Part shown: piece after piece, positions 3,451-6,413 of the stretch | How the letters are laid out: every line of letters begins with the position of its first letter | Numbering within the stretch: position 1 is the stretch's first letter | Origin: a virus | DNA: 26,063 nucleotides | Direction: 5' to 3' (one strand) | Virus record (IMG/VR): IMGVR_UViG_3300020034_000063 | Span: 1 to 26,063 of that record | The notes under the pieces: generated by a model | Told to the model about the DNA's origin: nothing | Seen by the model: only the letters and a program-made list of their open reading frames with translations | Database searches by the model: none | Position numbers and translations under genes: made by a program

Positions 3451-3669
3451 TTAGCCGACCTTTCGAATCTGGCCGCGCCGGACGAGAAACTGATTCGCGA
3501 GGTACCGATCGACGAGATCCGCGCGGTAGCGGGGCCGGCCGCCGATGCGGGGTTGCAACTCCTCGAGCATCGGCAAGCCCCCGGCGGCGCGCAGCCGGTC
3601 GAACGTCGGCCGGGAGATTTGCAACGCGACGAGCAGATCGGCAATCGTGTAACAGCGTCGCGCCGTCAT
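3451..3669 (-). CDS. Excisionase/AlpA-like helix-turn-helix protein
   Basis: 72 aa from the ATG at 3669, chosen because it overlaps the Cro-like stop (ATGA); an upstream ATG at 3708 would overlap that gene by over 40 nt. The sequence RCYTIADLLVALQISRPTFD followed by RLRAAGGLPMLEEL and GGRPRYRADLVDRYL fits the winged-helix HTH of excisionases and MerR/AlpA-type regulators: helix, turn, recognition helix (SRPTFDRL), wing, then a final helix. In an integrase-carrying phage with immunity genes next door it is the best candidate for the directionality factor of excision. A second early transcription regulator is the alternative. Confidence 0.65.
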   Translation of the reverse strand: MTARRCYTIADLLVALQISRPTFDRLRAAGGLPMLEELQPRIGGRPRYRADLVDRYLANQFLVRRGQIRKVG

Positions 3670-3887
3670 GCGACCCTCCGGCGACGCGGCGAGGTTTCCG
3701 CGATGCACGCCGCGACGACTTGGGGCGTCGTCCCCAAGCCATTCGCCAGCGCCGCCACGGTGGCGTACGTCGGATTCCGGACCTTGCCGAGTTCGAGTTG
3801 ACTGATCGTGGTGGACTGAACGCCGGTGTTCTGCGCGAGGCGATACTGGCTCAGCCCGGAGCGGCGGCGGAGCGCGCGGAAATTCAT
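3666..3887 (-). CDS. Cro-like XRE-family repressor
   Basis: 73 aa. Starts MNFRALRRRSGLSQYRLAQN, then TGVQSTTISQLELGKVRNPT and YATVAALANGLG, a complete five-helix XRE/HTH_3 domain (residues 2-60) with recognition helix around STTISQLE. The rest is a short basic tail. Small size with no dimer/peptidase domain and position as the first gene of the leftward early operon, divergent from a second HTH gene, match lambda-type Cro. Its own promoter is predicted so close that transcription would begin at or within a base of the ATG, giving a leaderless mRNA. No clear ribosome-binding site is visible. Confidence 0.8.
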   Translation of the reverse strand: MNFRALRRRSGLSQYRLAQNTGVQSTTISQLELGKVRNPTYATVAALANGLGTTPQVVAACIAETSPRRRRVA

Positions 3888-4690: not shown

Positions 4691-6172
4691 ATGCCGCGGC
4701 GACACCGTGACGGTCAGGACGACACGAAACAGTCTGTCCACTACCGTGCAGAGCCGGCAAGATTTCTAGGACATTCGTACCACATGCCCAGCCGTCCCAC
4801 ACCCCCGAAAGGGTCCGGCATCCACCCTAAAAATGCGGGCTACCGGATCAAGGTCGTCATTGACAAGCTCGCGCACTACCACAGCTGCACCGCGGCGGAG
4901 GCCTTCCGCACCAAACCGCCGTTCCTGATCCTGCTCAACTGGAAGACACAGCAGCTCGCGATCCATGGCGGGGGCGACGCGGCCCCGCTCACCGGGAGCC
5001 TGGCCGTGGACATCACGGACTATGCCGACAGCGGCGCCGACGCGCGGCGCGTCACCTACCTGTGGAGATGGGCCGACGAGCTCGGCGCGGATCGCCCGAC
5101 GTTGGGGATCGCGGCCATCGAGTTGAACGACGTGATGCAGCGGTGGCGTACGACGCCGACGAACCAGGAGCGCCGCTTCCGACAGGGGCGTCCGAGTGCG
5201 GCGACTGGCCTGGATGATCAGAGCCTCAAGAAGCGCCGCGATCATCTCGCCGTGTTCGTCGATTGGGTGATTGCGCGCGACGTGCGCCAGGAGCATCCGA
5301 GCGCCGCGCCGGGCGAGCTCGCCGCGTTCACCGCGACCGCGCAGGCGACGCGGAACCCGGTCCGGTTCAGTCAGAAGTACAAGAACCCGGCGCCGAGCAC
5401 GCTCGAGGCCCGCGGGACCGACGAGCTCCACATTCTCGATCGCATCCTGGACGCGATGCCGGCGATCCGCTCGCACAAACCCCACGCGCCGGCCGTCCCA
5501 AGCGCCGCGCGCCTGATCGCCGCCGTGGAGATGCATACCGGGATGGCGTTCGCGACCATTGATCGGCTCGTGCGCAGCGACTTCGACCCGCTGGCCGCGA
5601 CGCTTCGGTTGCCCGAACGCATCAAAGGAGAAGGCGTTCCCCGCCGCACCGTGCCCCTCTCGAGCCGTGGCGTGATCGCCTTGCGCGCCTTCGACGCCGC
5701 CGGGCTCTGGGCCACGCTCACGCCCGCGAGCAGTAACACGACCCGCCGAGCGGTCCGGAAGGCGGTGGCCAAGGTGCGCGCCGCGCTCGCGGCCGAAGAC
5801 GCCGCCCTGGAGGCCGGTGGGGTCCACGTCGACAGTCCCGCGCGTCACGCGGTCCGGACGAGTCTGGCGAAGCTGCAGACGTGCGGCACCCAGAAGGATT
5901 TGCGGCACAGCTTCGCGAGCGTGGTCTTTGCGAAGACGGAGGGGAACGAAGCGATCACCGGGCGGCTCCTGCAGCACGCGCCAGGCTCGCCGTTGACGGC
6001 CCGCTATGCGAAGGCGGCGCAGGCCGAAATTGACCGGCGTGCGGTCGCGAAACTGGACGCGCCGGAGACGCCAGCGCCGAGGCCGTCGGGAGACAAGCGG
6101 GAAAAGAAAGTGCCCGCGAAAGTGCCAAACGTCGCCAAACCTAGGTTAATACGGCGCTTAGCTGCCAAGTAA
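4691..6172 (+). CDS. int: Tyrosine recombinase (phage integrase)
   Basis: 493 aa; an internal ATG at 4784 (residue 32, MPSRPTPPKGSG) is an equally good start and would give 462 aa. It integrates the phage at the host tRNA-Glu gene. Residues 110-215 look like the helical SAM-like core-binding domain (YLWRWADELG, DWVIARDVRQEH); 270-445 is the catalytic domain. Visible catalytic residues are K312 (IKGEGVPRRTVPL), R405 in KDLRHSFAS, H429 in LLQHAPGSPLTARY and nucleophile Y439. Two positions differ from the usual pattern: the box I arginine site reads TGMAFATI (A286), and the His before LRH is K402. The gene stops 1 nt before the tRNA-derived core and its last codons carry two copies of the putative arm-type sequence. 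Confidence 0.88.
   Translation: MPRRHRDGQDDTKQSVHYRAEPARFLGHSYHMPSRPTPPKGSGIHPKNAGYRIKVVIDKLAHYHSCTAAEAFRTKPPFLILLNWKTQQLAIHGGGDAAPLTGSLAVDITDYADSGADARRVTYLWRWADELGADRPTLGIAAIELNDVMQRWRTTPTNQERRFRQGRPSAATGLDDQSLKKRRDHLAVFVDWVIARDVRQEHPSAAPGELAAFTATAQATRNPVRFSQKYKNPAPSTLEARGTDELHILDRILDAMPAIRSHKPHAPAVPSAARLIAAVEMHTGMAFATIDRLVRSDFDPLAATLRLPERIKGEGVPRRTVPLSSRGVIALRAFDAAGLWATLTPASSNTTRRAVRKAVAKVRAALAAEDAALEAGGVHVDSPARHAVRTSLAKLQTCGTQKDLRHSFASVVFAKTEGNEAITGRLLQHAPGSPLTARYAKAAQAEIDRRAVAKLDAPETPAPRPSGDKREKKVPAKVPNVAKPRLIRRLAAK
6107..6126 (+). repeat. Paired GAAAGTGCC repeats, left arm-type integrase sites
   Basis: Two copies of GAAAGTGCC at 6107-6115 and 6118-6126, starts 11 bp apart (one helical turn), inside the 3' end of int where they encode a KVPAKVP repeat. 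They match the pair on the other side of the tRNA-derived core and lie 48 bp from it. The pattern resembles lambda Int arm-binding sites. Confidence 0.6.
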
Positions 6173-6173
6173 C

Positions 6174-6222
6174 TGGCCCTTTCAAGGCCAAAACGCGGGT
6201 TCGAATCCCGCTGGGGACGCCA
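6174..6222 (+). other. attP core: 3' portion of a tRNA-Glu(UUC) gene
   Basis: The 49 nt fold as the 3' part of a tRNA: anticodon arm TGGCC-CTTTCAA-GGCCA (anticodon TTC, Glu), variable AAAC, T arm GCGGG-TTCGAAT-CCCGC, 3' acceptor strand TGGGGAC, discriminator G, and CCA at 6220-6222. G73 and GGGGAC match bacterial tRNA-Glu. The upstream 27 nt do not provide the partner strand GTCCCCA, so this is not a complete tRNA gene. It is the segment a tRNA-targeting phage carries to restore the host gene on integration. Crossover is expected in the anticodon arm. Phage genes lie on both sides, so this appears to be attP, not a prophage end. Confidence 0.85.
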
Positions 6223-6260
6223 CTCAAAAACCCCATAAACATTGAACAAAAGTGGCCTGA

Positions 6261-6291
6261 ATCCCGCGATTTCGCAGGATCGGCCGATCCT
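6261..6291. repeat. Two adjoining palindromes in the attP right arm
   Basis: 6261-6280 is an inverted repeat ATCC-c-GCGA-tt-TCGC-a-GGAT with one mismatch pair. Overlapping it, 6276-6291 is a perfect palindrome AGGATCGGCCGATCCT. They sit between the core and the right arm-type repeats, where accessory proteins (excisionase, IHF or Fis) bind in lambda. Which protein, if any, binds here is unknown. Confidence 0.5.
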
Positions 6292-6303
6292 CGTAACTGC
6301 ATC

Positions 6304-6327
6304 AAAAAGCCTCATTCTGGCTCTTTT
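6304..6327. terminator. Possible bidirectional terminator downstream of int
   Basis: AAAAAGCC, a 7-nt loop (TCATTCT), then GGCTCTTTT. The G/C stem is only 4 bp, extended by A-T pairs across one mismatch, with T-runs on both strands. It would end integrase transcription before the moron operon. It is weak, so confidence is limited. Confidence 0.4.
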
Positions 6328-6335
6328 GGAGAGTC

Positions 6336-6365
6336 GAAAGTGCCCAGAAAGTGCCCGCGAGTGCC
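6336..6365 (+). repeat. Paired GAAAGTGCC repeats plus a degenerate third, right arm-type sites
   Basis: Exact copies at 6336-6344 and 6347-6355, starts again 11 bp apart, with a 7/9 match GCGAGTGCC at 6357-6365. A longer 15-bp identity (AGAAAGTGCCCGCGA) links 6105-6119 with 6346-6360. Here the sequence is non-coding, so conservation is not explained by protein. Three tandem sites resemble the P' arm of lambda attP. Confidence 0.6.
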
Positions 6366-6384: not shown

Positions 6385-6413
6385 TTGACCCTACACCGCT
6401 GTGGGTTTATACT
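6385..6413 (+). promoter_or_regulatory. Strong sigma-70 promoter of the moron operon
   Basis: TTGACC at 6385-6390, a 17-nt spacer, and TATACT at 6408-6413. It points right, opposite to the flanking late genes, with the first gene's ATG 50 nt downstream. No operator half-site TAGAAT is visible nearby, so it may be active in the lysogen. Confidence 0.75.

Follow-up and report, generated by a model that had tools for sequence, protein, structure and literature searches.

The closest described relatives of the arrangement that we analyze here are found in mycobacteriophages. In Cluster J and Cluster K mycobacteriophages, a core derived from a tRNA or tmRNA gene is surrounded by paired putative arm sites of 10-11 bp; in Cluster J the tRNA-derived core is 44 bp long, attP lies downstream of int, and the left end of attB falls in the anticodon loop (PMC3706429, PMC3203893). 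Giles, the Cluster J phages Omega and Baka, and CrimD of Cluster K all have two pairs of ~10-bp repeats that flank the core. Phage lambda also has arm sites on both sides of its core, and the lambda record has two separate left sites, at ~32 bp from each other, and a single cluster of 41 bp on the right. Another set of arm-binding integrases, the IntCTnDOT subgroup, is of interest for its active site: Arg I can be absent, and in IntDOT it is replaced by a downstream arginine (PMC8138268). Because Giles, Baka and Clusters J and K have paired arm sites, the putative attP described below is a new case of an arrangement that is already known, in a phage group that is poorly studied.

The DNA that we analyze is an entire IMG/VR virus record of 26,063 bp, classed as linear, to which we refer as the window. 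Among its gene products are a coat protein of the P22 type, a head closure protein (Hc3), an annealing protein (ERF) and an exonuclease (YqaJ); it is a P22-like phage with an attP. The best explanation for positions 6106-6365 as a whole, to which we assign a probability of about 0.9, is that a temperate P22-like phage has its attP here, and that the four copies of GAAAGTGCC in it are putative Int arm-type sites (Table 1).

Table 1. Features in and around the putative attP of the window (coordinates in the 26,063-bp record)
Feature	Coordinates	Strand	Evidence
Candidate excisionase / directionality factor, small HTH_17 protein	3451..3708	-	PF12728 E=1.4e-6; phrog_66 E=1.7e-5
int, divergent tyrosine recombinase	4691..6172	+	phrog_1 E=0.002; AF2 pLDDT 84.9, lambda Int best match
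Left arm-type site 1 (putative), GAAAGTGCC	6106..6114	+	Exact match; 2+2 pattern score 36/36
Left arm-type site 2 (putative), GAAAGTGCC	6118..6126	+	Exact match; 12 bp after site 1
attP core, equal to tRNA-Glu(UUC) from anticodon arm to CCA	6174..6222	+	49 bp identity; Rfam tRNA 27 bits, E=0.0023
Presumed crossover region, TGGCC / CTTTCAA / GGCCA	6174..6190	+	Anticodon stem-loop sequence; attB identity edge 6174
Right arm-type site 1 (putative), GAAAGTGCC	6336..6344	+	Exact match
Right arm-type site 2 (putative), GAAAGTGCC	6347..6355	+	Exact match; 11 bp after right site 1
Degenerate third copy, GCGAGTGCC	6357..6365	+	7/9 match
Promoter-like TTGACC-17-TATACT	6385..6413	+	1 found vs 0.1 expected in shuffles

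All four exact copies of GAAAGTGCC are confined to 250 bp, and an exact-match search finds none elsewhere in the window. It is the only 9-mer seen four times within 260 bp or less of the window, and when the window was randomised 100 times (first-order, dinucleotide-based), no 9-mer was repeated four times within 260 bp. The initial annotation of this DNA had described the repeats almost as we find them. It placed the first copy at 6107, one position too far, and the other exact copies and the 7/9 copy at 6357 correctly; its 11-bp spacing is that of the right pair, and the left pair is spaced by 12 bp, start to start. The distances to the core that it gave as 48 and 114 bp agree to within 1 bp with the 47 bp (left pair to core) and 113 bp (core to right pair) that we measure. 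The left pair does lie in int codons, in frame, where it encodes KVPAKVP, and the right array is indeed non-coding, in that no convincing gene covers it and the first good start downstream is ATG 6463. If up to two mismatches to GAAAGTGCC are allowed, the window has 93 matches against ~70 expected, and we consider it doubtful that the degenerate third copy is a true site.

The core matches the tRNA-Glu(UUC) genes of two Acidobacteriota genomes (MAGs) at 49 of 49 positions, and the sequence beyond it on either side differs between the window and those loci; the core is thus shared with a candidate host attB. The stop codon of int (6170-6172) almost abuts the position where identity to attB begins. 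The two halves of the anticodon stem form an inverted repeat around a 7-bp spacer, and this stem-loop is presumed to be the region of strand exchange, where the core-type sites would also lie. Since phage genes flank the core on both sides, the window carries an attP and not a prophage junction. The tRNA core also indicates that the host of this phage is probably a member of the Acidobacteriota.

The integrase is divergent. Its longest open reading frame has 493 aa from 4691, and ATG 4784 (462 aa) is the likelier start. It has no Pfam match, it matches the integrase family phrog_1 at no better than E=0.002, and direct searches with it in phages, plasmids, viral contigs and genome contigs gave no useful match. 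The route to its relatives went from the tRNA core to the host phylum, from there to a search of Acidobacteriota genomes, and then to profile searches. The Acidobacteriota genomes provided the first relative, P0002 (locus L058), which matches Phage_integrase, and the profile searches of viral contigs brought in about 60 relatives of Int. PF00589 matches 44 of the 46 aligned family members. An AlphaFold2 model built with the 46-sequence alignment has pLDDT 84.9 and pTM 0.74 (a run with 5 sequences reached only pLDDT 62), and its top PDB matches are lambda integrase, 1z1b and 1z19 (Z=16.2, rmsd 3.6 over 261 residues), with Tn1549 Int, Xer and Cre ranked below. The core-binding and catalytic fold of the model and the PF00589 homologues both place the window integrase in the tyrosine recombinase superfamily. 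At the N-terminus the model has a beta-beta-beta-alpha order (strands 13-16, 19-25 and 32-36, helix 47-61), with a pLDDT of only ~50-72. No Pfam arm-binding domain matches the window integrase; PF24624 Int_N matches 5 of the 46 members.

With residues numbered from ATG 4691, the window integrase has K312, K402, R405, H429 and Y439, and at the Arg I position it has A286. The family retains the catalytic Lys, Arg II, His III and Tyr, it has mostly Tyr at His II, and in place of TG-x-R it has TG-x-P/T/A, so that Arg I is lost. R310, two residues before K312, likely substitutes for it. The two arginines are perfectly reciprocal: the 49 integrases without Arg I have the arginine two residues before the Lys, and the 3 with Arg I do not, with no exceptions in 52; alignment A6 gives the same reciprocity, 44 to 2. 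The replacement arginine of IntDOT, which we take to be R285, near K287, would match the place of R310. The clade of the window integrase may thus provide a second case of an IntDOT-type relocation, and this active-site swap is the feature on which we compare the window integrase with the IntCTnDOT subgroup.

We then tested the repeats across the family. At each locus, the ~1000 bp that surround the int stop were scanned for one word that occurs four times as two pairs. The exact 6-mer version of this 2+2 pattern is present beside int in 30 of 58 loci, a count that includes the window and some near-identical loci, compared with 2 of 56 controls upstream, 2 of 58 inside int, 1 of 55 far downstream and 3 of 2900 randomised sequences. 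A tolerant 9-mer version, in which a score of at least 33 out of 36 counts as positive, finds the pattern in 31 of 54 family loci against 5 of 104 control stretches, and the window scores 36. In most positives, a tRNA 3′ half, mostly of tRNA-Arg, lies between the pairs, in either orientation relative to int. The scanned region has no quartet in 23 of the 54 family loci, some of which may be integrated, truncated, or directed to another target.

The words themselves differ. We find GAGGCACCA in L074, CGGGGCACC in L077, CCTGGCAC in L078, ACTTCCACG in L106 and L136, TGTCACGCA in L108, GGGGCACGC in L120 and GGGTTGCCC in L123; none of the relatives found has a word close to the GAAAGTGCC of the window. 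The word varies by integrase clade, and word similarity follows Int similarity (Mantel p <0.0005). The initial annotation had proposed an alignment of relatives to see whether the word changes together with the N-terminal domain of Int. The word does track Int, but the N-terminal domain is not singled out: in partial correlations the catalytic domain does at least as well, and linkage alone could yield part of the co-variation. Arm-type sites of an attP are short sequences that recur to the left and to the right of the core, and the window has such repeats. Because the 2+2 geometry recurs in relatives with different words, the GAAAGTGCC quartet is almost certainly a set of docking sites for the phage integrase.

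As for the word in isolation, a scan of viral contigs for paired GAAAGTGCC returned 33 stretches. A PF00589 integrase is present in 2 of the 25 parent records that were searched, neither of them attP-like, and therefore GAAAGTGCC by itself is not diagnostic.

The geometry is informative in several respects. The gap on the anticodon side, measured along the tRNA, is nearly constant in the family (median 38, window 41), while the gap on the 3′ side ranges from 68 to 139 (window 113), and the pair-to-pair distance from 183 to 251 (window 230). These pair-to-pair distances cluster at ~217, 230, 240 and 251 bp, and periodicity at close to 11.4 bp is preferred to a uniform null (none of 5000 draws reached it), in a test that shared ancestry weakens; for that reason, helical phasing of the distance between arm pairs is suggestive only. 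The int-proximal pair can start as early as 122 bp ahead of the int stop and as late as 589 bp past it.

This last observation bears on the position of the left pair in the window. One could argue that the left copies are a mere repeated peptide of Int, KVPAKVP, given that they are in frame with KVP in tandem, and that the right copies are there by chance or, given the 15 bp of AGAAAGTGCCCGCGA exactly common to both arrays, as a duplicated echo. We regard this as very improbable, as the right copies lie in non-coding DNA, no such set arises in randomised sequences, and the int-proximal pair of the relatives is often outside int and yet stays at the same short distance from the core. Because the pair drifts in and out of int at a fixed distance from the core, the location of the left arm-type sites inside int codons is incidental, and the coincidence of protein and DNA constraints that had been proposed for them is an accident of this locus.

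Most relatives have their entire attP inverted with respect to int, which then adjoins the long arm (L085, L087, L091-L093, L098-L100, L102, L105-L108, L111, L112, L116, L119, L120, L123, L136 and L137). The short arm is the one next to int in the window and at the loci L074, L077 and L101. L094 and L096 have the 2+2 repeats with a tRNA half just ~10 bp from the 3′-side pair, as if they used a different part of the tRNA. In L058, from an Acidobacteria genome, positions 2053-2120 after int hold the 5′ half, and not the 3′ half, of a tRNA-Arg gene; this 5′ half ends at the anticodon loop and is flanked by GTGGCACC repeats, and the stretch may be an attachment junction. In L065, ~210-330 bp past the int stop and in the orientation of int, the tRNA 3′ end TTCGAGTCCCGTCGACCCCGCCA appears twice, 96 bp apart.

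Applied to the mycobacteriophages, the same scan recovers AATTGGGGT four times in Giles, with spacing 12, 221 and 12 and a score of 36/36, and TGCATACG-type sites in Baka, with spacing 11, 217 and 11 and a lower score of 32. The window, with 12, 230 and 11, has the mycobacteriophage type of 2+2 pattern (same direction, ~11-13 bp in a pair and ~200-250 between pairs), at a pair-to-pair distance of 230 compared with 217-221 in Giles and Baka. In addition, the profile of the Giles integrase aligns with that of the window integrase (hhalign 96.9%, E=1.5e-10). The differences are that the repeat word, host phylum and tRNA are others in the mycobacteriophages, that the Giles integrase keeps Arg I and the window integrase does not, and that the CrimD pairs are mutually inverted whereas those of the window have the same direction. 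Like lambda, the window has putative arm sites to the left and right of its core, and lambda Int is the best fold match of its integrase, but it has 2+2 close pairs and a tRNA core, and the sequence-profile similarity of the two integrases is negligible. The window attP would, by analogy, work like that of lambda, with a 2+2 layout nearer to Giles and Cluster J. The match to the lambda P and P′ arm sites that the repeats had suggested from the start thus holds as an arm-site reading, on the strength of the family counts and of the lambda Int-like model, and fails as a description of the layout, which is that of Giles and Baka.

Other proteins could in principle bind these repeats. The sigma-70-like promoter of Table 1 starts ~20 bp beyond the right array and is directed at the small genes from 6463, and the HTH_17 protein encoded nearby matches PF12728 above the Pfam cut-off and phrog_66, annotated as 'excisionase and transcriptional regulator'. 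In KplE1, the Int arm sites and the sites of the RDF overlap the int promoter (PMC2951348). The repeats might then bind an excisionase, a directionality factor or another phage regulator instead of Int, for instance as operators of the promoter at 6385-6413. We find this improbable: the left pair is distant from that promoter, the pairs flank the core with a near-fixed gap on the anticodon side at many family loci and with different words, and the word follows the Int clade. Under the arm-site reading, Int on the right arm could still affect the promoter-like site.

Iterons are typically short direct repeats about one helical turn apart, as the copies of GAAAGTGCC are, and one may ask whether the repeats are replication-origin iterons, or a packaging signal, that flank attP by chance. 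That there are just two pairs, placed around a tRNA half beside int in relative after relative, makes this the least probable of the alternatives, with hardly any weight.

The arm-site reading is supported by the repeats, by the identity of the core with tRNA-Glu, by the recurrence of the geometry in relatives, and by the predicted lambda-Int-like fold. From these we infer how the site may operate. Int would cut and join DNA at the core, copied from half of the host tRNA-Glu(UUC) gene, with strand exchange most likely in the 7-bp anticodon loop, such that one of the junctions would regain a complete tRNA gene. Int would hold the GAAAGTGCC copies by its small N-terminal domain, and its own catalytic domain, or that of a neighbouring Int, would hold the core; the intervening DNA would be bent for arms and core to meet in one complex. 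The HTH protein at 3451-3708 would control the direction of the reaction.

In phages with related head genes we looked for a relative of the integrase and found none, bar one unrelated PF00589 integrase, and because they have no integrase relative, they could not be used for the repeat test. L052-L053 (41 kb), a relative of the head-gene block of the window, has collinear structural genes, a different early region and no integrase that we could find. Judging from this locus, the window appears to have gained its int/attP module by mosaic insertion.

We propose, tentatively and at slightly under even odds, that these integrases form an undescribed clade, with Acidobacteriota among its hosts, in which Arg I moved to an RxK motif and attP follows a strict rule, with a short arm of fixed length at the anticodon end, a long arm that changes in steps of approximately one helical turn, and a clade-specific word. 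If true, such a clade-wide rule would allow the specificity of arm sites to be read from sequence throughout the whole family. Dozens of uncultured phages have one attP geometry and differing repeat words, and therefore arm sites and integrases can be paired from sequence alone. This natural variation in arm words is material for understanding how the arm-binding domain reads DNA, and for phyla that are hard to manipulate, the family offers a collection of tRNA-directed integrases.
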